Positions 1,865 through 14,175 of a stretch of 64,000 bases of DNA are shown piece by piece. The position numbers were made by a program, and so were the translations under genes. The stretch spans positions 124,001 to 188,000 of the forward strand of contig JAFGCO010000055.1 in NCBI GenBank assembly GCA_016932575.1, written 5' to 3'. The stretch's first letter is position 1, and every line of letters begins with the position of its first letter. Under the pieces are notes generated by a model. It was not told where the DNA came from and searched no databases. It saw only the letters and a list, made by a program, of their open reading frames with translations. The stretch is from a bacterium. GTDB taxonomy: Bacteria > Zhuqueibacterota > QNDG01 > JAFGCO01.

Positions 1865-3388
1865 ATGTGGGAAAACGAGACTATTGTATTGATTACCAGC
1901 TTGAAGAAGCGGCTTCTTGCCGGGAACAATAAAGTTCGTTTTAGTAAGATTTCTGCCGATACTGCCCTGCCCGCATATATTAAGGCAATTTTTAAAAATC
2001 AGGTTGAAACGTTTATTCAGACCGAATCACCGATTTCCATAAAATCAACACCTCATTTTGATTTATCAGAAAATGATATTGCCCACATCAGCGATCGTTT
2101 TATCGATGTTTTTCGTGAAGCAGCATCCTTTTCAAATGAGGAAGTCGAGGAGGTTCTCCGAACAGCTCTCATTCTCCGGATGGATTATCTTGTTAAACCA
2201 GTGGATACCATGCGGCGATTATTATTTAACGGGGAAACAAATATCGGTCTTGACAAAATGAGTAGAATTCTTAATCCCTTTTTAAAAGTGCTTTCTTATG
2301 CAGAGAAATTAATTGAAGAGTGTCAACGGTTGAGTTATCAGGCCATTGAAAGTGATGAATATACAAATTTAATGAACGAAATGCTGCACCGTATGACAGG
2401 ACAAGAACCGGTAAAGCTGGCGACAGGTGATTTTTCGGTATTGATAGATTTTATTTCGGAAACAAAAGGTGAAGAGATTACACGGGTCGAAGGACAGGTG
2501 GTTCAAGAATTCATGGCAGATCGGAACCTAATTGGATTTCGCCGGGCTGTTGAGGTAGAAATGAAACTCGGCAGAGAGGATTTTGATCTTGTTGATCTGG
2601 AGATGACACTGAAGCGGTATCTTGAACTGAAAGAGGAATTTTCCAAATCAAAGGAGAATGAAGTTCAGGAAAAAGAAGAAAAACCGGAACCGATCGGATC
2701 GATAGAGGAGACGATAAAAGAGGTGCCTCAAGAGGCACAAAAAGTCGATTCTGAAGAAGAAACAGGATTTGAAAATCTTGATCTCTCGGAGGTGGGAGAT
2801 GAAGAGTTCAATTTAAATGATATTATCAGCCCTCAAACCGAAACACAGAGGGTGGAAGATATTAAAATCAATCCTCCGGAATCCAAGGCCGATCAGGAAG
2901 ACGGGGGTTGGGATCTGGATGAAGTACTGGGCAGTGAGGATTTGATTCACGAGGAGAAACAGGCTCCCGTTCCTCAGAAATCTCAGGAGGATAAAAAACC
3001 TGTCGCAAAACCGGAAGAGAAAACTCTACCAAAAAAGCAGATGCGAATTATTCGCAGAGATCAACCCCAACCTTCAGAAATGAGCTCTGAAACTGAAGCT
3101 AAGGACGATTTTGACCGACGTACCGGTGTGACTGTGGGTAATTTATGTCAGATGATCGATTCAAAAACAGAAAAAGTATTTGTGAAAAAATTGTTCAACA
3201 ATGATCAGGATGCATATAATCATCTTATGAAAAAGCTGGAAGAGTCGGAAAGCTGGCGGGTGGCCAAGATTTTGATCGACAATGAGCTTTTCAAACGTGA
3301 TGTGGATCCGTTTTCTCGGGAAGCGATCAAACTGGTCGATTTGGTATATAGTCGTTATTATCCAGAAGAAGGGGTCGGAGGAAAATAA
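1865..3388 (+). CDS. Unknown acidic two-domain protein
   Basis: I do not recognise a named family. The 507-residue protein has three visible parts. Residues 1-265 are helical, with no signal peptide or membrane segment. Residues 265-415 are a low-complexity, Glu/Lys/Pro-rich linker, probably disordered. Residues 420-500 are a compact helical C-terminal domain, starting DFDRRTGVTVGNLCQMI and containing FVKKLFNNDQDAYNHLMKKL and DPFSREAIKLVDLVYSRYYP. It starts 12 bases after the archease stop, and its TAA shares a base with the ATG of the FecR-domain gene (TAATG), so the two are probably translationally coupled. A scaffold or envelope-associated regulatory role is only a guess. Confidence 0.8.
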   Translation: MWENETIVLITSLKKRLLAGNNKVRFSKISADTALPAYIKAIFKNQVETFIQTESPISIKSTPHFDLSENDIAHISDRFIDVFREAASFSNEEVEEVLRTALILRMDYLVKPVDTMRRLLFNGETNIGLDKMSRILNPFLKVLSYAEKLIEECQRLSYQAIESDEYTNLMNEMLHRMTGQEPVKLATGDFSVLIDFISETKGEEITRVEGQVVQEFMADRNLIGFRRAVEVEMKLGREDFDLVDLEMTLKRYLELKEEFSKSKENEVQEKEEKPEPIGSIEETIKEVPQEAQKVDSEEETGFENLDLSEVGDEEFNLNDIISPQTETQRVEDIKINPPESKADQEDGGWDLDEVLGSEDLIHEEKQAPVPQKSQEDKKPVAKPEEKTLPKKQMRIIRRDQPQPSEMSSETEAKDDFDRRTGVTVGNLCQMIDSKTEKVFVKKLFNNDQDAYNHLMKKLEESESWRVAKILIDNELFKRDVDPFSREAIKLVDLVYSRYYPEEGVGGK

Positions 3389-4173
3389 TGATGAAAAAAT
3401 GTGTGTTGTCAATGATGCTCATTTGTTTGTTAGTGAGCGTGCAGGCCTGGACTGACACCCAGGATGCAAAAAAAGGTGTGGTGACCTATGTGGATGGTCA
3501 GGTGAAGCGTAAATCAGGTGATTTGGAAGATTGGAAGAATGCACTGGTCAATACGGAAGTTCTTTCGGGTGATAAGGTAAGAACCTATATTGATTCACGT
3601 GCAGAAGTGGATTTATCTGAACTGGATATCATTCGTCTGGCACCAAGGACGGTGATCGATATTGTTCGTCTTTACGAAGAGACAAAGGAAAAAAAGATCA
3701 AAACAAATATTTCTGTTGAACAGGGAGAGCTCTGGGCCAATGTGAATCCAGTCAAAGCCAACACAGAATTTGATATTTCAGCCCCGGTAGCCGCCGCTGC
3801 GATTACGGGAACCATTCTTCGAATGAATGTGAATGAAGATTCTACAACACAGTTGAAGGTTTATGAGGGGGAAGTCCAGTTGCGGAGGCAGCCACAGCAA
3901 TTGTTAAAACCCATGCAGACAGGGAGCCTTAAACCCACGCAAATTCAGGGACCTACACAGGTACAGGGACCAAAAGAAGTGTCCGTGGAAGAATGGGTCA
4001 AGATTGTGAAAGCCATGCAGCAAATCACAGTCAGTAAAAACGGAGAAATCATCAATTTTGGCGGATTTTCGGTACAAGATAAGGAGGAGCAATCTCCTTG
4101 GATCAAGTGGAATCACGAACTGGATAATCGCCGATTGCAAAATTTGCGAGAGCGGTTGAAAGAAAAAAATTAA
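3388..4173 (+). CDS. FecR-domain periplasmic protein
   Basis: A 261-residue exported protein. MKKCVLSMMLICLLVSVQA is a typical signal peptide. Residues 25-165 form a FecR domain: a KGVVTYVDGQVKRK opening, a GDKVRTYIDSRAEVDL core, then ITGTILRMNVNEDSTTQLKVYEGEV. A Gln/Pro-rich linker with repeated GPTQVQGPKEV-like units precedes a short C-terminal segment ending WIKWNHELDNRRLQNLRERL. FecR domains sense or bind in the periplasm, but no sigma or anti-sigma gene is adjacent, so a link to iron signalling is not supported. It overlaps the upstream gene by one base and is followed by an intrinsic terminator, which closes the operon. Confidence 0.88.
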   Translation: MMKKCVLSMMLICLLVSVQAWTDTQDAKKGVVTYVDGQVKRKSGDLEDWKNALVNTEVLSGDKVRTYIDSRAEVDLSELDIIRLAPRTVIDIVRLYEETKEKKIKTNISVEQGELWANVNPVKANTEFDISAPVAAAAITGTILRMNVNEDSTTQLKVYEGEVQLRRQPQQLLKPMQTGSLKPTQIQGPTQVQGPKEVSVEEWVKIVKAMQQITVSKNGEIINFGGFSVQDKEEQSPWIKWNHELDNRRLQNLRERLKEKN

Positions 4174-4230: not shown

Positions 4231-4371
4231 ATTGCCTTTGGCTATTGCATTGTGTAACTTTTTATATTCTTACTTTCAGTATCACATCTTTGGGGTGAGC
4301 ACCCGTTAGCTTTATACATACATGTGTATATCACAATAACAATGAAAAAACTTATTCCAAGGAGGATTCCT

Positions 4372-6594
4372 ATGAGGAAGATAACCGTGGGGATAATTAT
4401 CCTGGTGTTTTCACTGTATAAAGTGAATGCGTATAATTTCAGAGCAAACAAGATTGCATACCCTTATCGGATCTGGACCGTACTGCAGTATGATAAATTT
4501 GAAACCCGGATTGACGTGCAGGGGCTTTTTTATCAGACAACCACTCATATGAAACTAAAATTGGGTAAGAATCGTCAATGGGACAGTTATCGGAACAGAT
4601 ATCAATGCACGGCTCCTCCCAGCGGGGATTATACGTGGACATGGATTTTTGAGCTGCCGGACGAAACCTATATCACTGATATGGAAATCTGGGATGTACA
4701 GACACAGCAGTTTGTCCGGGCGGATATGCTGAACCTTTCTAAAGCTGAGACCCTTATGGATAACCAGACAGGACCCCGGGCATTACTCCGCGAATACCGG
4801 AGTCGGGAATATAATGCAAACTGGAGCCATTTTTACCGGCTGGAGATCTCACCTGTGAATCGAGATGAATCTGTTGAATTGATCATGAGAACACTTTCTC
4901 CTTGCCAAATGTACTGGGATGTGCGCCGATTTTATATTCTGTCTCGGCAATTTTACAATCCATATGAATTAGAATGCAATTCACAGGCGTCGGCCGTGTT
5001 TTATGTGCTGGATCATGATCATCCCGAAGAAGCACCCCGGGTGATCTCTGACATGCCATCCATATGGGAAAGATCAGGAGATTACTGGACAGCCGAGACG
5101 GGTCCCGACAATATAAATTTTTATGATAATTCCATTCTGAGGGTGCCGCAGGAGGTTCAATCCGGTTCGTTTATTCAGGTGAGTGAGGCAGGTGATAACA
5201 AGTTTTATCAAATGGCCTGTTCTCCCCAGATAGGATTTGATCGATGGCCTTCAAGACATATTGTGATCGGAATTGATTTGATGGAATCATCGTATTTCGG
5301 GCGTCAGAAAATTTTCGAAAAACTATATTATCCTTTAACAGAAAGCACCTCTAGTAAGGATTCTGTGATATTTTTAATCAGTGATTTCAATCCAACATGG
5401 CTTTCGTACGATTTTCAGCAAGCGTCTGCCAGCCTCATCGATGCGTCGCTTAATCAGGCAGAAAACTATGTTCCGAAGCTTACAACCATGCCCTTTATGC
5501 TTCGGGAGGCAGTTGAATTATTGAACAAAAAAGGATTGTCCGGTGAAATCTGGCTGATTTCGAATGATACAGATCACGGGTATCCGGCAGGAACAGTGAT
5601 GGAAATTCTGCAGCAGACTTATTTCAATGCCGAAAATCCTCTTGTTTTTCGAATCATAGATGCTTCTTCATATGGATCTGCCTATTCCATCAACAATAAA
5701 TACTATCAAGGCAACCAGTATCTCTATGAAAACCTGTTCCGTTTATCTAGAGGCAGTTTTATATGCCTTCGGGATTATCATGAATATGATTGGACAGATG
5801 CAGGTATTGACTGCTTTGCACCGACAGTGACTTCGGTGGAAGTTGATCTGATTCCTCAGGGTGGATTGACATATTCCGCTGTCAATCTGAACCGAGGGCG
5901 CCAGCATTTTCATAATATGTCACGGTATTTTCAAATCGGGTTGTTCAACGCAAGCCAGCCGTATTTATTTTCGCTTGGCTTTTTTGGAAATTATCAGGAT
6001 ACGTTGTATCAAGCCGTATTCGATTTCCATGAGAATAACCATGACGTTCCGGAGGACATCCAGAAATGGGTGATCCAATATTGGTATGGCCATTACATAC
6101 GTAATGAATTGTTACTTCAACCGCAAAGTTACGAGACCATCGATTATATTGAACAATTGGCGATTGAACAGAATGTATTAACACCTTACAGTGGTCTGGT
6201 CATACCGGGTCCGGAGGGTTCGATCGGATTTCAAAAACTAACCGCTTCAGATTCAGTATTTACAGAAACATCGACCACTTCAGTGGCATCCGGTTTTAAG
6301 TTACCCGAATCGTTCCGAATAACCGTGTATCCAAATCCCTTCAATCCTAAAACCCGAATTATCATGTCCTGGTTGCCGGATATAATTACAGAGCCAATTC
6401 AAATGACAATTACCAATGTCATGGGTCAGGTTGTGTTTATAAAATCATTGGATGCTTGCTCGCAGTGTGGTAAGATCGAATTTCAGTGGGATGGAAGAAC
6501 CCAAGAAAGTGCAATACTGGAATCCGGTGTCTATTTTTTACATGTTCAATCCGGAGAGATCAACCGGACATTGAAAATGATGATCGTTCGTTAG
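4372..6594 (+). CDS. Secreted VIT/VWA-like protein with C-terminal sorting tail (paralogue 1)
   Basis: A 740-residue exported protein. AAGGAGG at 4359-4365, six bases before the ATG at 4372, fixes the start; upstream in-frame ATGs would bury the signal peptide MRKITVGIIILVFSLYKVNA. Residues 60-190 resemble a VIT domain (ITDMEIWDVQTQQFVRADM and the later RLEISPVNRDESVELIM). Residues 295-430 resemble a von Willebrand A domain (IVIGIDLMESS), but the metal-binding DxSxS motif is degenerate. Near residue 600, EQNVLTPYSGLVIP matches the VTPYTSFLV element seen in VIT/VWA proteins. Residues 646-740 form a YPNPFNPKTRI-type tail of the type IX secretion/FlgD-like class. Role unknown; probably cell-surface. 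A paralogue follows immediately. Confidence 0.85.
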   Translation: MRKITVGIIILVFSLYKVNAYNFRANKIAYPYRIWTVLQYDKFETRIDVQGLFYQTTTHMKLKLGKNRQWDSYRNRYQCTAPPSGDYTWTWIFELPDETYITDMEIWDVQTQQFVRADMLNLSKAETLMDNQTGPRALLREYRSREYNANWSHFYRLEISPVNRDESVELIMRTLSPCQMYWDVRRFYILSRQFYNPYELECNSQASAVFYVLDHDHPEEAPRVISDMPSIWERSGDYWTAETGPDNINFYDNSILRVPQEVQSGSFIQVSEAGDNKFYQMACSPQIGFDRWPSRHIVIGIDLMESSYFGRQKIFEKLYYPLTESTSSKDSVIFLISDFNPTWLSYDFQQASASLIDASLNQAENYVPKLTTMPFMLREAVELLNKKGLSGEIWLISNDTDHGYPAGTVMEILQQTYFNAENPLVFRIIDASSYGSAYSINNKYYQGNQYLYENLFRLSRGSFICLRDYHEYDWTDAGIDCFAPTVTSVEVDLIPQGGLTYSAVNLNRGRQHFHNMSRYFQIGLFNASQPYLFSLGFFGNYQDTLYQAVFDFHENNHDVPEDIQKWVIQYWYGHYIRNELLLQPQSYETIDYIEQLAIEQNVLTPYSGLVIPGPEGSIGFQKLTASDSVFTETSTTSVASGFKLPESFRITVYPNPFNPKTRIIMSWLPDIITEPIQMTITNVMGQVVFIKSLDACSQCGKIEFQWDGRTQESAILESGVYFLHVQSGEINRTLKMMIVR

Positions 6595-6612
6595 CTTGAT
6601 AGGGAGGTTATC

Positions 6613-8808
6613 ATGTGTCGAATAAAAATTATCGTCATATGTTTATTTTATATTATTACCGGGATTCATGCCACTGAGTTCAGTGTTTATGAAGCCAATT
6701 ATCCGGGTGTGAAGGATTATAATGTCAATATCGATGAAGCTCAGCTTAAAGTCTATTCACGTGGTAATTATGTGGAAATGAATCTGTACTTAACCGTATC
6801 CTATAATTTTAACAGCTGGTTTTTTAAAAACTACGATGAACTTGAATTTCTCTGGCAATTCACATTGCCGGAACATGCTGTGATGCATGAATTCTGGATT
6901 TGGTTTGGAGATTCTGTGGCTCATGCCCAGGTGCTGGATAAATGGACAGCCGAACTCTTGTTCAGCGATGTCAGCACTCCAGTACGCCATCCCGGATTGC
7001 TGACACAATCAAGCCCGGACAGGAACGGACAAGTTAGTTATGAATTAAAAATATTTCCGTTAATGCGCGGTGAATGTAAACAATTTATGATTCAATATTT
7101 GTTACCCGGACGGCCTTCGGTTAATTCAATGAGAGCCTGGCTGCCCACTACACAGCTTATTTCAGAAAAAACATCGAAGATCGATACGTTGCAGGTGTCG
7201 TATGCATATCAAGATATACCGTATGAGCCAAAGATGATCGGCACGGAAGTTTTAGAGTCGAACCATGTGCCCGATCAGAAAATTTGGAACCAGGTTATTC
7301 CTCTCGAATATGATCAGTTTGTCGAAATGGTGCTTCCGTCACCGGTCAAAGATGATTTCTTTTTTAGTACCTATCAGAAAAACGGTGAATATTTTTATCA
7401 TCTGGCTGTTAATCCGCCTGAAGTTCCCAAGGTAAATGAATTCCGAAACATGCTGATTGTGATCGATTTTAACCGATACAATTCCAAAGATCTGGATGGT
7501 GAATATCTCTTAACTTTTTTAAAGGAGACCCTTCAATCGACACTGAGTGAGCAGGATTCTATCAATATTATTGTGGGTTATGATGATATTGTTCAGGGTG
7601 GAAATAACTGGTTGAGCTGCACTGAAACCAATCTGGACAATTTATTTTCTCTGACTATGAAGCGTTCCTTTCCCGGATACAGTTATTTTCTGCCTTTGGT
7701 CACTCGGGCTGCAGAGTTTATTCATCAGCAGTCCGGTTGCAGTGAAGTGATTTTTTTCTCAAATACAGATGAAGTCAATCTGAATATGAATGACTTCGAG
7801 GCGCTCGCAGACCGGATTATTGGCATGTTTCCAAAAAATACACGACTCCATTTTGTTGATCTGGACAACAAGAGTTATTTACGTTATTCTTCAAATGATA
7901 TTGGTAATTACTCTGTCGGATATTACGAAACTCAGCTGCAGTCGTTTTACGGACGAATGGCAGACGCAACCCTGGGGAATCTTTTTTTCCTGTGGTATCA
8001 TGATATTAAAACCATTATTACGGCTCTTTTGTATGAAAAAGTGAGTCATTTTGAACGGATTGAAGTTCAGATGCGTTTTCAGGAAGGGTACGCCCACAGT
8101 CAGCATTTAATGGCACTACATGAAGGATATTATCCGTTGAATACGCCCATTATGCAGGTCGGAAAATTTTCCGGTCAACTGCCCATGGATGTGACTGTAC
8201 TGGGAAAGGTCCATATGGAGACAGTTAAAAAGACCTTTACCGTAACAGCGAATGATATGGTGACCGGAGGTGAGCCTGTAATAACGTCCTGGTACGGGGA
8301 TCATATCCGTTCTCTGGTGCATCGTTCCTATGATCCGCTTACAGTCAATGACATTATCCAATTGAGTATTGACCAGCGCATTTTAACGCCTTATACCGGA
8401 TTCCTGATCTATCATCCGGATCTTATGACATATGGGGATCAAAATGATGCAGACAGTGAGAACGATGATCAAAGTTCTGACAATAAAGAGGGGCAGGCAG
8501 ATGCTCCCACTGCTGTCGAGGAGGTTGATCCCGACAGTACGGTCGAATTGACAGCATTTCCCAATCCGTTTAATGATCAGACCTGTTTGAAGATTGTTAT
8601 ACCGGACAGTAAAATGGCGGATTGGAACTTGAGGATTTATAATATATTGGGCCAGGTTGTTAAACACTTGGTCCTGAAACCCGGTTTATCTTATATCCAG
8701 TGGGATGCGACGGATCATAATGACTGTCATGTCAGTACCGGTATCTATTATGCTGTGCTTGACCGGCCTGGAGTCAGACATTCCATAAAGTTAATCTATA
8801 TGCGTTGA
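6613..8808 (+). CDS. Secreted VIT/VWA-like protein with C-terminal sorting tail (paralogue 2)
   Basis: A 731-residue exported protein starting 18 bases after paralogue 1, with GGGAGG just upstream of the ATG. The signal peptide is MCRIKIIVICLFYIITGIHA. The architecture repeats paralogue 1: a VIT-like region at 30-180 (LEFLWQFTLPEHAVMHEFWI); a VWA-like region from about 279 (NMLIVIDFNRYNS, again without an intact DxSxS); DQRILTPYTGFLIYHP near 583; an acidic Asp/Glu/Ser/Gln linker at about 615-640; and a sorting tail at 641-731 (AFPNPFNDQTCLK, then NILGQVVK). Sequence identity to paralogue 1 looks low, so the duplication is old or the proteins evolve fast. They probably act as a pair at the cell surface; the ligand is unknown. 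Confidence 0.85.
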   Translation: MCRIKIIVICLFYIITGIHATEFSVYEANYPGVKDYNVNIDEAQLKVYSRGNYVEMNLYLTVSYNFNSWFFKNYDELEFLWQFTLPEHAVMHEFWIWFGDSVAHAQVLDKWTAELLFSDVSTPVRHPGLLTQSSPDRNGQVSYELKIFPLMRGECKQFMIQYLLPGRPSVNSMRAWLPTTQLISEKTSKIDTLQVSYAYQDIPYEPKMIGTEVLESNHVPDQKIWNQVIPLEYDQFVEMVLPSPVKDDFFFSTYQKNGEYFYHLAVNPPEVPKVNEFRNMLIVIDFNRYNSKDLDGEYLLTFLKETLQSTLSEQDSINIIVGYDDIVQGGNNWLSCTETNLDNLFSLTMKRSFPGYSYFLPLVTRAAEFIHQQSGCSEVIFFSNTDEVNLNMNDFEALADRIIGMFPKNTRLHFVDLDNKSYLRYSSNDIGNYSVGYYETQLQSFYGRMADATLGNLFFLWYHDIKTIITALLYEKVSHFERIEVQMRFQEGYAHSQHLMALHEGYYPLNTPIMQVGKFSGQLPMDVTVLGKVHMETVKKTFTVTANDMVTGGEPVITSWYGDHIRSLVHRSYDPLTVNDIIQLSIDQRILTPYTGFLIYHPDLMTYGDQNDADSENDDQSSDNKEGQADAPTAVEEVDPDSTVELTAFPNPFNDQTCLKIVIPDSKMADWNLRIYNILGQVVKHLVLKPGLSYIQWDATDHNDCHVSTGIYYAVLDRPGVRHSIKLIYMR

Positions 8809-8921: not shown

Positions 8922-11546
8922 TTAAAAATGATGTCCCAATGAAAAATAATATTGATGTTGTCCATCGCTCATGCGGCCGGCTGCCAAATGCAGCGGCCCC
9001 ACAAGGGTGTTCATGGATAAAATGATCCCGATACCGTGTTTAAAGTCGTCCAGATTAATTTTTGCATATTTTTCCCAGATACCCCCAAAGTCGTAGCGGA
9101 TGGATAAATAACTTTTAACGAGCTGACGAACAGGAAGGCGGTATCTCAATGTACTACTCAATAAAAGATTTCGCTTTCCAATCCAGGCATAATCGGGCAA
9201 TCCGATAAAACTGTTTAATCCTCCCATTCGGAATTGTTTTGAAAATGGTGTGTTAAGGCCGGAAGTGCCCCAGAAAAATTTGGGATGAAAAACGAAATCC
9301 CGATGAATGGGGTAATAGGATTCAAGCCATGAACTGAGTTTGATAAAGTCGATTTCACTGCCTAAAAATCGGGCTGATGTCTCATATTCCAACCGGTGGT
9401 ATTTTCCCCGACTTGGAAAGGGCATCCGGTCTCGTGTATCCACTTCTGATCGGATACAAACCGTTTGTATAAATTTTTTATCCGGGTTGACAGCCACAGA
9501 TGAATCAGCCTGAATATTGAAGATTTCAGAACGGATCTCAGCAAAAACGGTTCCCAGGCGCTGCATTTGCCTGCCTGCTCCGAATGTAGCATACAGTTGG
9601 CTGAGTTTATAAGAGCCCTGAATTTTATGATCCAGATAGTAATCGTATTGTGACCGGTTATATCCAATTTCAAGTTTTGATGTCAGAAAAGACGTGTATA
9701 AACGGTCGGCTCTTAAACTTCCCTTAAGTTGCTCATCTTTTGAACCCAGTAGTCCTGTCAGGGTTCCTTCTGCTCCAATTCCCCAGATATTATCCTGAAC
9801 CACTTCTATGAATCCTTTAGATCGCCTTTCAAGATCATATTTCAATCCAACGCGCGCTAATGAAAATTTTTGTTCAGTGACATGAAAGATAAGCCGGTAA
9901 TCATTTTCCTGAGGTACAACTTCAAATCGAACATCCTCAAAATAACCGGTACTGTAAATATTTTGGACAGATTGATTCACTTTTGCGATATTAAACAGCT
10001 CGCCTTTATTGATTGTCAGTTCCCGTTGAATAACGAATGGTTTTGTAATATCAAGTCCGCGAATTTTAACTTTGTCTATTTTTCCTTCATTAAGATCAAT
10101 ATAGAGTACATGGTCTTGAACGGCACTTGATCGCAGCCGAACAAGCGTGAATCCTGCACCCTGATAATAAGCAAGTAATTTTCTGAGATCTTTTTTACCC
10201 TGCTGAATTCGAATCCTTTGATGTGGACGGGTTTCAATCAAAGAGAGTAACAAGGAATCTGAGTATTCATGATTTCCTGAAATGACAATCCGCTTGATTC
10301 GAGGTGTTTCACTGACCTGAAAATGCAGGATATGCTGACTGGTATCATATGAGGCCGTGATGTTTGTTAACAGATCTGATTGATAAAGCTTGTGGGCCGA
10401 CCATCGAATATCATTCGTTGAAATCGGATAGCGTGTGTCAAGATTCAGCTTGTTCAAATAATAAGCGGCTGTTTCATATTGACAGCCGGAGACGGTGATG
10501 TATTTCACAGGACAGATCCTGTCGGAAAACTTTAAATCACGTTTAGAAAGAAGAGAGTCAATTAAATATATCTTTGCTTCGGCGGCTTTCTCTCCGACCT
10601 GAATAATATCATCAATCTTTGAAAAATCAGTATTTGATAATTCCTCCAATAATGGCTGGATTCCGATGTCTGCTTTTTGATATTGAGCTTCAATGGACTC
10701 CTGTGACATGATTGTTGTCACCTGGTCCGCAATTTCCCAGGGTGCTTTCAAATTGTTTTCAATTCTTAATTTTGAGGATGTATCCACAGCAATGATCAAG
10801 TCGCATTTCAGATTGCGCGCATCATCCACTGGAAGGTTCTGAACCAGGCCTCCGTCTACAAGCCAGGCGCCGTTTTTTCTGACCGGAGTAAACAGCAGGG
10901 GGATGGCCATACTGGCCCGAAGGGCTTCTATTAGAGAGCCTTCAGAGAGAACGACTTTTTCACCCGTTAAAAGGTCTGTTGTAATGGCGCGAAAAGGGAT
11001 GGCCAGATCATCGAAATTTCTTGAAACCGGATAACGAGCCTTCCAGATTAATTCAGAGAGAAGCTGATTAAATTTGACGCCACTTGTAAAGGCGCTTTGA
11101 ATATCCGGCGAAAATCCCTGAAATCTTAGTTGAAACAGATGACGTGAGCGCTCAGCTTTTTCAGCGAGGAATAATTGTTGTCTGGGGGGTGTATCCCGAA
11201 TGATTTCATCCCATGCGATTTGCCTGGCCAGAGAATCAAGATCATGAGCCGTATATCCGATTGCATAAAGACCGCCGATAATTGCACCCATACTGGTACC
11301 AGTGATACCGTCGATTGGAATTCCATGGCGTTCAAGTACTTTCAATACACCAATTTGTGCAATTCCCCTTGCCCCCCCCCCACTCAGTGCCAGCGCAATC
11401 CGGGGAGACAGGGAACGGTGATACGGGACGTAACTGTCATTTCCAGAGGCGTGTTCTTCAAAGCCAAGTGGAATGTTAATGTATTGCGCGTGAGTGAATC
11501 CCAGGAACAGAAAAACAAGAGCATATATCCATATTGAAAATTTCAT
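8922..11546 (-). CDS. Patatin-like phospholipase fused to POTRA and outer-membrane barrel
   Basis: An 874-residue exported protein. The signal peptide is MKFSIWIYALVFLFLGFTHA. Residues 48-330 are a patatin domain with oxyanion-hole loop GGGARG (56-61), nucleophile motif GTSMG (Ser85) and catalytic DGG (Asp231). POTRA-like segments follow (about 350-560, e.g. IKRIVISGNHEYSDSLLLSL). A BamA/TamA-type barrel fills the C-terminus and ends in FSLGHHF with terminal Phe. This is the architecture of PlpD-type (type Vd) autotransporters and their FCB homologues, which hydrolyse phospholipids at or beyond the outer membrane. It is the last gene of a minus-strand run after the PilT pair. The oxyanion loop is encoded by ten consecutive G. 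No clear ribosome site precedes the ATG. Confidence 0.92.
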   Translation of the reverse strand: MKFSIWIYALVFLFLGFTHAQYINIPLGFEEHASGNDSYVPYHRSLSPRIALALSGGGARGIAQIGVLKVLERHGIPIDGITGTSMGAIIGGLYAIGYTAHDLDSLARQIAWDEIIRDTPPRQQLFLAEKAERSRHLFQLRFQGFSPDIQSAFTSGVKFNQLLSELIWKARYPVSRNFDDLAIPFRAITTDLLTGEKVVLSEGSLIEALRASMAIPLLFTPVRKNGAWLVDGGLVQNLPVDDARNLKCDLIIAVDTSSKLRIENNLKAPWEIADQVTTIMSQESIEAQYQKADIGIQPLLEELSNTDFSKIDDIIQVGEKAAEAKIYLIDSLLSKRDLKFSDRICPVKYITVSGCQYETAAYYLNKLNLDTRYPISTNDIRWSAHKLYQSDLLTNITASYDTSQHILHFQVSETPRIKRIVISGNHEYSDSLLLSLIETRPHQRIRIQQGKKDLRKLLAYYQGAGFTLVRLRSSAVQDHVLYIDLNEGKIDKVKIRGLDITKPFVIQRELTINKGELFNIAKVNQSVQNIYSTGYFEDVRFEVVPQENDYRLIFHVTEQKFSLARVGLKYDLERRSKGFIEVVQDNIWGIGAEGTLTGLLGSKDEQLKGSLRADRLYTSFLTSKLEIGYNRSQYDYYLDHKIQGSYKLSQLYATFGAGRQMQRLGTVFAEIRSEIFNIQADSSVAVNPDKKFIQTVCIRSEVDTRDRMPFPSRGKYHRLEYETSARFLGSEIDFIKLSSWLESYYPIHRDFVFHPKFFWGTSGLNTPFSKQFRMGGLNSFIGLPDYAWIGKRNLLLSSTLRYRLPVRQLVKSYLSIRYDFGGIWEKYAKINLDDFKHGIGIILSMNTLVGPLHLAAGRMSDGQHQYYFSLGHHF
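11372..11381 (-). repeat. Homopolymer of ten G in the patatin coding strand
   Basis: The plus strand shows ten C here, read as ten G in the gene. The run encodes the three Gly of the oxyanion loop plus the first base of Ala59. It is the longest G or C run I found; others in the window reach eight. A one-base slip would frameshift the protein before its active-site Ser85. Confidence 0.9.
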
Positions 11547-11721: not shown

Positions 11722-12780
11722 CTAATGCGCATATTGTAGAAAACGCTTTTTATCACTGGACTTCAGGTACGCTTCTTCACCACTTATTTGGTTGCTCCGT
11801 AAATATTTTTCAATAGAATCATCCATTAATTGCATGCCATTGGATTTACCAGCCATGATGATATTGCGAATATTGGTTGTGTTGCCTTCGCGAATATTCG
11901 AAGATAATCCCTGGGTAGCCATTAAAATTTCGTTGGCAGCGATTCGTCCGTTCCCGTCTTTGGTACGCAGCAACATTTGAGAACATACACCCCGCAGGGT
12001 ATCAGCCAGCATAGTTCGGGTTTTATTTTGTTCATCGGGCGGGAACACATCGATGATTCGATCAACTGTTTTACTTGCGGAATTGGTATGTAAAGTCCCA
12101 AAGACCAGCATACCCATTGAGGCAGCGGATAGTGCCAGAGAAATGGTTTCGTAATCCCGAAGTTCACCTACAAGAATGACGTCCGGATTTTGGCGCGCAG
12201 CCGTTTTTAATCCTTCAGCAAAACTATGCGTGTCCTTGCCTACTTCACGCTGACAGAAGATGCTTTTTCTATTTTGATGAACGAATTCAATGGGTTCTTC
12301 TATGGTGATAATATAGCGGGCTTCATGGATATTGATATGATGAATGATTGCCGCCAAGGTTGTTGACTTTCCGGAGCCGGTGGGACCTGTCATTAATACA
12401 AGCCCTGAACGCAGTTTAGCGAAATTGATTAATACAGACGGCAGTTTTAATTTTTCAATAGATAAAATCTCTGTAGGAATCATTCTGAGCACTGCGCCCA
12501 TACCATGTATTTGATAGTAGTAATTCACCCGGAATCGACCCCGGTCTTCAAGACTGTAGGCAAAATCAACATCCATATGCTCCTGGAATTTTTTCCATCG
12601 CCATGGTTCGCAGATTTCGCTGAGCATTTGATTCATTCTTTCTTGATCCAAATCCGGCTCTTCATCCAATGTATCCAAATAGCCATGTATGCGAACTTTG
12701 GGCTTTTGGCCCTGTAGCAGATGCAAATCAGAGCCACGCTTGTTCAATAATATATCACACAAATGATCGATCAAAGGCAT
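11722..12780 (-). CDS. pilT: Type IV pilus retraction ATPase PilT
   Basis: A 352-residue hexameric ATPase of the secretion-ATPase superfamily that depolymerises type IV pili from the cytoplasmic side of the inner membrane. Walker A is GPTGSGKS (132-139), the Asp box is near 158-165 (ITIEEPIE), Walker B is ILVGELRD (202-209) and the His box GTLHTNSA is near 228-235. Length and the absence of an N-terminal GspE domain and of the zinc-binding cysteines of PilB fit PilT. It starts 18 bases after a second PilT-like gene, so the two are one operon. No pilin assembly genes are beside it; a prepilin-like gene is about 8 kb away at 22930. Confidence 0.93.
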   Translation of the reverse strand: MPLIDHLCDILLNKRGSDLHLLQGQKPKVRIHGYLDTLDEEPDLDQERMNQMLSEICEPWRWKKFQEHMDVDFAYSLEDRGRFRVNYYYQIHGMGAVLRMIPTEILSIEKLKLPSVLINFAKLRSGLVLMTGPTGSGKSTTLAAIIHHINIHEARYIITIEEPIEFVHQNRKSIFCQREVGKDTHSFAEGLKTAARQNPDVILVGELRDYETISLALSAASMGMLVFGTLHTNSASKTVDRIIDVFPPDEQNKTRTMLADTLRGVCSQMLLRTKDGNGRIAANEILMATQGLSSNIREGNTTNIRNIIMAGKSNGMQLMDDSIEKYLRSNQISGEEAYLKSSDKKRFLQYAH

Positions 12781-12798: not shown

Positions 12799-14175
12799 TT
12801 ATATTCCACTGCTTTTTTGCTGTTGAAACAACAGGTTATCGACCATAGCATAATGGGCCTCATCGGTTTCAATTATTTTTTTCTGGAGTAATTCTTTAAT
12901 GGAGTTATCCATGATTTGCATTCCCTTTGATTGATTTATCCGCATCATATTTTTAATTTGAAAGACCTTGTTGTCGCGAATCAGACTGCTGATTGAGGAA
13001 AGATTAATCATGATTTCCAAGGCCAGCACACGTCCTTGATCGTCCGCCCTGGGAATCAGACGCTGACAGATAATCCCCCGTAAGGATTCACTGACCATGG
13101 CCCGGATTTGATTTTGCTGGTTGGGAGGGAAAAAATCCAACAGACGCATTACCGTCTGAGCGGCATCGATTGTATGAAGTGTTGAAAAGACAAGATGGCC
13201 GGTTTCTGCGGCTGTTACAGCCAGTGAAGCGGTTTCAAGATCTCTCAATTCGCCGACCAAAATGACATCAGGATCTTCGCGGAGTGCGGCACGAAGCGCA
13301 TTGCTGAAGTTTTTAGTATGCGATCCCACCTGGCGTTGACTGATATGTGATTTAATAGGGTCATATATGAATTCAATCGGATCTTCCAGTGTAATGATAT
13401 GCTCTGATCGTTTTTGATTGATCAAATCGATTATCGCGGCCAAAGTAGACGATTTACCGGCACCTCCTGGGCCAGTGACCAGTACCAGCCCTTGAGTGTA
13501 ATCGGCAAATTGCTTGATGTGCTCAGGAAGGCCCAGGTTCTCAAATTTTGGAACAGATTGACTAATTATCCGAAAACTCGCTTCCCAGCCGAGACGTTGT
13601 TTTAGGAAACAGCTTCGATATCGTCCGTGATCCGGAAATTCCAGACAAAGTTCAAGGGAAAGGTTTGTTTTTAATTTTTCACGCTGGTTTTCCTTTAACG
13701 CGTTAAATAGAATTTTTTCTGTTTCCTGAGGAGTAAAGGGAGGCCGGTCAAATAGGATCATTTTGCCGTGCTTTCGAATGAGAGGGGGGGAATTGACACT
13801 GATATACAAATCTGAAGCATCCTGATTGCGGGCTTCCATCAGAAACGCTTGCAGAGATTCAGAGTTTTTCAGAGTGTCAGAAGAGATCCTGGGTGTTGGA
13901 GAGACGTCTGATGGAAGTGATGCCGAAATTGTATTGACTTGAGACGGGGAAGCAGCAGGGGGTTGTTGCGGTCGGGATTGTGATTCGAATTTATTTTTGA
14001 TAAGAGCGGCGTGTTTCTCGCTGACCAGTTTGGTACGTATCAATATATCTAATAATTGCAATTCAGGATGCTGAACGAGCAGCACTTTGGCTTTTTGAAG
14101 CTGTTCCTCAGTGACGAGCTTGTTTTTATAAATAACCTTTTCAACGAATTGATCAAATTGCAGATTGACAGCCAT
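12799..14175 (-). CDS. PilT/PilU-like ATPase with N-terminal extension
   Basis: A 458-residue PilT-family ATPase. Residues 1-65 form a small helical domain (EEQLQKAKVLLVQHPELQLL, ending VSEKHAALIKNKF) like the MshE/GspE N-terminal modules. A Pro/Ser/Gln-rich linker (66-105) leads to the motor domain from about 106. Walker A is GPGGAGKS (235-242), with Ala where PilT has Ser; Walker B is ILVGELRD and the His box is STLHT. PilT is often paired with the auxiliary PilU, which this may resemble functionally, although the N-terminal extension is not typical of PilU. It is the first gene of the minus-strand run 14175-8922. Confidence 0.88.
   Translation of the reverse strand: MAVNLQFDQFVEKVIYKNKLVTEEQLQKAKVLLVQHPELQLLDILIRTKLVSEKHAALIKNKFESQSRPQQPPAASPSQVNTISASLPSDVSPTPRISSDTLKNSESLQAFLMEARNQDASDLYISVNSPPLIRKHGKMILFDRPPFTPQETEKILFNALKENQREKLKTNLSLELCLEFPDHGRYRSCFLKQRLGWEASFRIISQSVPKFENLGLPEHIKQFADYTQGLVLVTGPGGAGKSSTLAAIIDLINQKRSEHIITLEDPIEFIYDPIKSHISQRQVGSHTKNFSNALRAALREDPDVILVGELRDLETASLAVTAAETGHLVFSTLHTIDAAQTVMRLLDFFPPNQQNQIRAMVSESLRGIICQRLIPRADDQGRVLALEIMINLSSISSLIRDNKVFQIKNMMRINQSKGMQIMDNSIKELLQKKIIETDEAHYAMVDNLLFQQQKSSGI

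Follow-up and report, generated by a model that had tools for sequence, protein, structure and literature searches.

Two adjacent genes, A and B, in a 64,000-nucleotide stretch of bacterial DNA (the window) are predicted to encode divergent, ITIH-like surface proteins, and wherever B was found, A lay directly upstream of it. We put the probability at about 0.5 that the two proteins form a metal-independent complex on the cell surface, one that arose by an old duplication and is inherited as a unit. The computations support the fold, the sorting tails, the loss of DxSxS, the pairing, the matching histories and purifying selection; from these we infer actual export, physical contact between A and B and an adhesive or matrix role for the complex.

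Architecture and predicted fold of A and B

The two genes lie in tandem on the plus strand, 18 nt apart, in a genome of 4.41 Mb and 72 contigs (Table 1). An alternative GTG start for A is present upstream at 4324, and its frame is also open. The original prediction read both products as a signal, a VIT-like domain, a VWA-like domain, an LTPYxGxLI element and a sorting tail, in that order; the order proved correct for A and for B, and so did the coordinates. It had also described a strong divergence despite the adjacency of the genes, in agreement with the 21% identity measured here. Judged by their sequences, A and B are full-length paralogues, with homology that runs along the entire length (E 2e-16). 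When the window's own genome was searched with B lacking its tail, only two places matched, namely A and B themselves. The full-length B query matched 127 places (150 of 166 candidates scored); besides A and B, all 125 of these matches lie in the part of B from residue 585 onwards and represent a similar tail.

Several other genes were noted around the pair. A FecR-domain protein (3388-4173; Pfam FecR 51.8 bits) is encoded directly upstream of A and also resembles Leptospira surface proteins (Lsa33, for example), at NCBIfam scores below threshold; no match to this FecR gene was found beside the other pairs examined in the phylum genomes. On the minus strand, facing B, lies the gene for a Patatin-POTRA-Omp85 protein (8922-11546), and beyond it are two T2SSE-type ATPases (11722-12780 and 12799-14175), which look PilT-like.

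Table 1. Positions of the A and B genes and of their predicted features in the window.
Feature	Position	Strand	Basis
Protein A gene	4372..6594	+	ORF, ATG at 4372, stop ends at 6594; 740 aa; predicted surface protein, ITIH-like (VIT/VWA), with type IX tail
A putative signal peptide	4372..4434	+	Hydrophobic N-terminus, judged by eye
A VIT-like beta domain	4483..4902	+	Residues 38-177; AF2 strands; ITIH1 alignment from residue 34/35 on
A VWA-like domain	5242..5823	+	About residues 291-484; D302 kept, DxSxS lost
A LTPYSGLVI	6178..6204	+	Residues 603-611; counterpart of ITIH TPLTS motif, from alignments
A type IX type A sorting domain	6325..6585	+	Residues 652-738; TIGR04183 27.1 bits, cut-off 23
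Protein B gene	6613..8808	+	ORF; 731 aa; predicted surface protein, ITIH-like (VIT/VWA), with type IX-like tail
B putative signal peptide	6613..6675	+	Hydrophobic N-terminus, judged by eye
B candidate contact patch	6688..6840	+	Residues 26-76; 15 of 36 B-specific near-invariant columns
B VIT domain	6727..7119	+	About residues 39-169; Pfam VIT 71-162, E 1.2e-4, under cut-off
B VWA-like domain	7438..8040	+	About residues 276-476; D285 kept, DxSxS lost
B LTPYTGFLI	8383..8409	+	Residues 591-599; counterpart of ITIH TPLTS motif, from alignment
B type IX-like sorting tail	8557..8796	+	Residues 649-728; TIGR04183 20.2 bits, below cut-off 23

Profile searches recovered the two domains unevenly. Against Pfam VIT, B scored 22.7 bits (cut-off 26.5) and, in the genome-wide search, 26.8 bits, just over the cut-off; the window's A gave no match to this profile. 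At E<=0.01, Pfam VIT matched 22 of 23 B rows, the window included, versus 2 of 21 A rows. Neither A nor B of the window matched Pfam VWA; VWA_3 was matched by 3 of 21 A rows and was listed for no B row. A sequence search of the PDB with the A and B profiles returned mainly tail matches, with ITIH1 at E 0.56 for the A profile. The domains are borderline by sequence; the assignment to VIT and VWA is carried by the fold.

The AF2 models were built from shallow alignments of 21 rows for A (mean pLDDT 82.2, pTM 0.73) and 23 rows for B (mean pLDDT 80.4, pTM 0.63). In a Foldseek search of the PDB, human ITIH heavy chain 1 (6fpy, 6fpz) supplied the top three chains for both proteins, with best E values of 1.4e-20 for A and 8.8e-24 for B and alignments of about 630 columns. 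VIA-align also ranked ITIH1 first (A, Z 19.6 over 503 residues; B, Z 20.9 over 512 residues). The whole-chain rmsd to ITIH1 is about 10-12 Å for both models, which indicates that the domain placement differs from that of ITIH1 or is poorly predicted. Compared with single VWA domains, A gave rmsd values of 2.5-3.4 over about 167-181 residues, and B gave 2.7-3.5. The models support VIT and VWA folds in both A and B; structure prediction and Foldseek thus agree with the domain reading first proposed for the pair.

The fold comparison also bears on a different explanation, in which A and B are scaffolds or chaperones whose metal-less VWA domains offer a protein-protein platform to other type IX cargo. 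After ITIH1, the best single-domain matches include the VWA domains of TFIIH subunits, Sec23/24 and Rpn10, several of which work without metal. However, these matches are nearly tied with other VWA domains, for example those of ANTXR2 and calcium-channel alpha2/delta. The fold says nothing of function, and the TFIIH, Rpn10 and Sec23/24 rows were left unused as functional evidence. In addition, no neighbouring cargo gene was shared by more than 3 of the 25 stretches around the pair. A scaffold or chaperone role is considered unlikely.

Kinship with ITIH proteins is also seen in canonical VIT/VWA type IX proteins (those of L059 and L089, for example), which are like A and B in domain order, size and tail, and some of which occur in tandem. 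One of them (L059, about 6559-8655) aligns over residues 27-588 with human ITIH4 (phmmer E 7.8e-53) and over residues 282-582 with ITIH1, and its 'slrygiltpytaf' sits on the 'slaysfvtpltsm' of ITIH4. On these alignments, LTPYxGxLI is the counterpart of the heavy-chain TPLTS motif, the last motif of the ITIH-like family. Human ITIH heavy chains HC1 (6fpy, 6fpz) and HC4 (9c4f) share with A and B the order and fold of the VIT, VWA and C-terminal parts, and a C-terminal TPxT motif is common to the heavy chains, A and B. Unlike the heavy chains, A and B are bacterial, carry type IX sorting tails and have lost DxSxS.

Two described families were also compared. B matches part of TIGR03788 marine_srt_targ (17.5 bits, cut-off 551.65) and part of TIGR04286 MSEP-CTERM (22.5 bits, cut-off 150), below the cut-off in each case. 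Both families presumably hold VIT-type domains, and their proteins use other sorting signals. VIT/VWA proteins and type IX cargo are already known kinds of protein; in the open-access literature, neither a report joining VIT/VWA (ITIH-like) proteins with type IX cargo nor a description of the A-B pair was found.

Sorting tails and the metal site

The termini of both proteins resemble those of type IX cargo, the tail of A scoring above the TIGR04183 cut-off and that of B below it (Table 1). By eye, VNA in A and IHA in B precede the likely cut of the signal peptide. The Por_Secre_tail profile matched 20 of 21 rows for A and, for B, 18 of 23 (E<=0.01); contig ends truncate some of the rows. The window's own genome encodes SprA (824.1 bits joined, cut-off 200) and PorU (916.4 bits, cut-off 420). 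Together, these features suggest that A and B are actually exported.

The metal site (MIDAS) was surveyed in an alignment of 23 A, 25 B, 30 class C and 10 canonical proteins, in which rows L060_A and L064_A fall short of the DxSxS site and L081_B is gapped at later sites. Class C consists of VIT/VWA-like type IX proteins from the same phylum and from the Ignavibacteria class, and in the trees it is nearest to A and B. The absence of DxSxS, which the original prediction had reported for the A and B of the window, extends to the other A and B proteins aligned: the motif was found at the aligned site in 0 of the 21 A rows that cover it and in 0 of 25 B rows. Class C shares this absence (0/30). 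In contrast to A and B, the canonical proteins retain DxSxS together with the threonine and the second aspartate (10/10 for each), and those that were scanned score above the Pfam cut-offs for VIT and VWA. Regular-expression matches to DxSxS in class C lie two residues off the aligned site and were discarded.

Parts of the site persist. The first aspartate is retained in 21/21 A, 25/25 B and 25/30 C proteins. Asp occupies the loop-3 position in 7 of the 21 A rows, whereas every one of the 24 B rows with a residue there has asparagine. At the aligned column of the loop-2 Thr, threonine is present in 1 of 21 A rows and in none of the 24 B rows with a residue; one column further on, a Thr was counted by eye in 14 of 21 A rows, so that a remnant of the metal site is possible in A.

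A single canonical VIT/VWA protein is encoded in the window's own genome (L089 5055-7412, contig C46). Near this gene, on the same contig, lies that of a large protein with DUF3160 and a type IX tail (L089 9357-12125). Related large proteins are encoded at L094 3880-6330 and L105 3604-6333; in G061, proteins of this kind are encoded next to B and one gene away from an A fragment.

Pairing of A with B and the history of the pair

Whether one copy always accompanies the other, a question raised with the original prediction, was answered consistently from the side of B: A lies directly upstream at 25 of 25 B loci, a total in which no locus is counted twice. The phylum sample held 21 B loci in 17 of 82 genomes, with A adjoining each. 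The Ignavibacteria sample comprised 294 genomes drawn from a larger group, the class to which G082 belongs (G082 being the source of L061, Melioribacteraceae); among the matches listed at E<=1e-10 there were 4 B, all with A. Genome contigs from GTDB were also scanned with the B alignment, using two B-type peptide patterns, a scan that is blind to A alone. It gave 23 loci, from which L082 was dropped as a tail match only. The 22 real relatives fall in Calditrichota, KSB1, Deferribacteres, Ignavibacteriae/Melioribacteraceae and a few other groups, and in 22 of 22 A or a piece of A is directly upstream on the same strand; A is split into two frames at L070 and cut by the contig start at several other loci. 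The lists overlap by 18 loci (L060 and L065-L081, matched to the phylum loci by the length of the contig and the position on it), and these were counted once.

A search for A alone covered the 82 phylum genomes and the 4 Ignavibacteria genomes with B. Among the 82 phylum genomes, A without B was represented by three fragments (G062:C615, G062:C42 and G061:C336), all cut at contig ends. Six weaker partial matches (G038, G073, G075, G065, G069:C95 and G070) were left unclassed as A, B or C, as were weaker places in the Ignavibacteria class list. Measured between longest ORFs, the gap between A and B ranges from -13 to +121 nt across loci.

The neighbours change from one pair locus to another. 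One large cluster, which combines A, B and the canonical proteins with at least one further neighbour that carries a tail, was set aside in the neighbour count; outside it, no gene family that could be a third operon member appeared in more than 3 of the 25 stretches, many of which are short or cut. L073 and L097 in this comparison are the same contig fetched twice. At L078, a canonical VIT/VWA gene stands in front of A.

Class C differs from A-B in its pairing: no second A, B or C gene was present in 24 of 27 fetched loci, several of them short stretches. C-C tandems occur at 3 of the 27 (L110, L113 and L116); in the quick tree, the L110 copies are sisters, the L113 copies group with L115 and the L116 copies stand apart. 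Three of the 24 lone C loci (L054, L055 and L091) adjoin a canonical VIT/VWA gene. L054 and L055 (G048 and G036) contain rows of tail-bearing proteins, in which class C proteins are joined by canonical VIT/VWA and FG-GAP proteins. Pfam VIT matches about 2 kb apart on one strand were also found in seven phylum contigs besides those with B or C; two of the seven, L059 (4318-8655) and L102 (5026-9502), were inspected and carry two DxSxS proteins each. Encoding ITIH-like cargo in pairs may be widespread in this phylum. Since tandem VIT genes are common there, the tandem layout alone is weak evidence; A-B is the tandem case without an observed exception.

Phylogeny was inferred in a quick tree of 88 rows and a careful tree of 49 rows, from which 39 were left out, including the long branches L123_C and L116_Cx. 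Both trees recover A, B and the canonical group as a clade each (100/100 in the careful tree), and A+B is supported at 100/97.9 in the careful tree. The careful tree also unites class C (98/93), which the quick tree does not (2 changes). In the AU test, a grouping of B with C that leaves A outside stays compatible (p-AU 0.128). With C as the sister of A+B, DxSxS would have been lost before A and B diverged.

By eye, the topologies of A and B agree. Four genomes (G037, G042, G051 and G062) carry two pairs, and there, too, the clades of A and B match locus by locus. The window's pair groups with L061-L064 (Ignavibacteria) and G042/G062, not with most of its own phylum; this placement points to joint transfer of the two genes, or else to differential loss. 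Over 21 loci, A and B distances correlate with r 0.928, to which shared ancestry contributes a part; 0 of 5000 permutations reached this value, the highest being 0.478. L064 and L081 (little overlap) and L070 and L077 (no usable A row) were left out of the correlation.

A evolves faster than B, its distances averaging 1.53 times those of B. In comparisons of close pairs, whole-gene dN/dS lay at 0.080-0.191 in four comparisons of A and at 0.056-0.145 in five of B; the fifth for A, L074/L048, yielded no estimate owing to saturation. Both genes are under purifying selection. These values bear on one of the two explanations offered originally, diversifying pressure, under which A and B could be surface antigens and their divergence its result. 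An identity of only 21% between neighbours and the 1.53-fold distances of A could be read in this way. However, dN/dS of 0.056-0.191 in nine of ten comparisons does not support diversifying selection at the level of the whole gene, and because A and B each form one deep clade, their divergence is old. Diversifying pressure is thus very improbable; the putative hetero-oligomer, which was the other explanation, is the better fit.

A possible two-chain surface complex

Near-invariant columns specific to one class number 36 in B (unshared by A and C) and 9 in A; the slower evolution of B favours such columns in B. The pair can be read in two ways. A and B may be two independent surface proteins of one operon, each with its own ligands, which are kept together because both are needed at the same time. 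Each protein has its own sorting tail and its own near-invariant residues, other VIT genes of the phylum are also tandem, and co-inheritance in an operon does not need contact between A and B. However, pairing at 25 of 25 loci, in a fixed order, in two bacterial groups and amid changing neighbours, is stricter than that of class C, in which 24 of 27 fetched loci lack a second A, B or C gene. We regard independent action, the simplest alternative, as credible, if somewhat improbable.

In the reading that we prefer, a complex of A with B, the two proteins would be halves of one surface device, each an ITIH-like chain with a VIT domain, a VWA domain and a beta/helical C-terminal part. Each chain would be exported by the type IX system through its own sorting tail. 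An old duplication would have given rise to A and B; the metal-dependent adhesion site would have been lost, and the genes would have been inherited as one two-gene unit. On the cell surface, A and B would assemble as a metal-independent complex, which may hold a surface polymer, a matrix component or another cell. The constrained stretch of B on its VIT side is a candidate contact, and the B-specific and A-specific near-invariant columns are the first places to look for one.

A comparison with the human proteins suggests how such a complex may relate to the loss of the metal site. According to PMC7170535, one core protein carries the homologous chains HC1 and HC2, and HC1, the nearest solved structure, needs magnesium or manganese and an intact MIDAS to homodimerise. 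A and B are without this MIDAS route of dimerisation, and a fixed partner would be a natural replacement. In a more specific and more tentative version, A and B would form an obligate two-chain, metal-independent ITIH-like complex, a bacterial counterpart of the inter-alpha-inhibitor heavy-chain pairs, composed of two separately sorted type IX cargos and encoded by a cassette that has passed between phyla. The loss of the adhesion metal site would, in that version, have gone together with a fixed protein partner.

Because the pairing is strict, the prediction of a complex is directly testable. If A and B assemble, they would provide a simple bacterial model for metal-free partner binding by ITIH/integrin-like VWA chains, and they would show type IX cargo acting as a fixed heteromer. 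The canonical relatives, which align over some 560 residues with human ITIH4, bear on the origin of the ITIH family.
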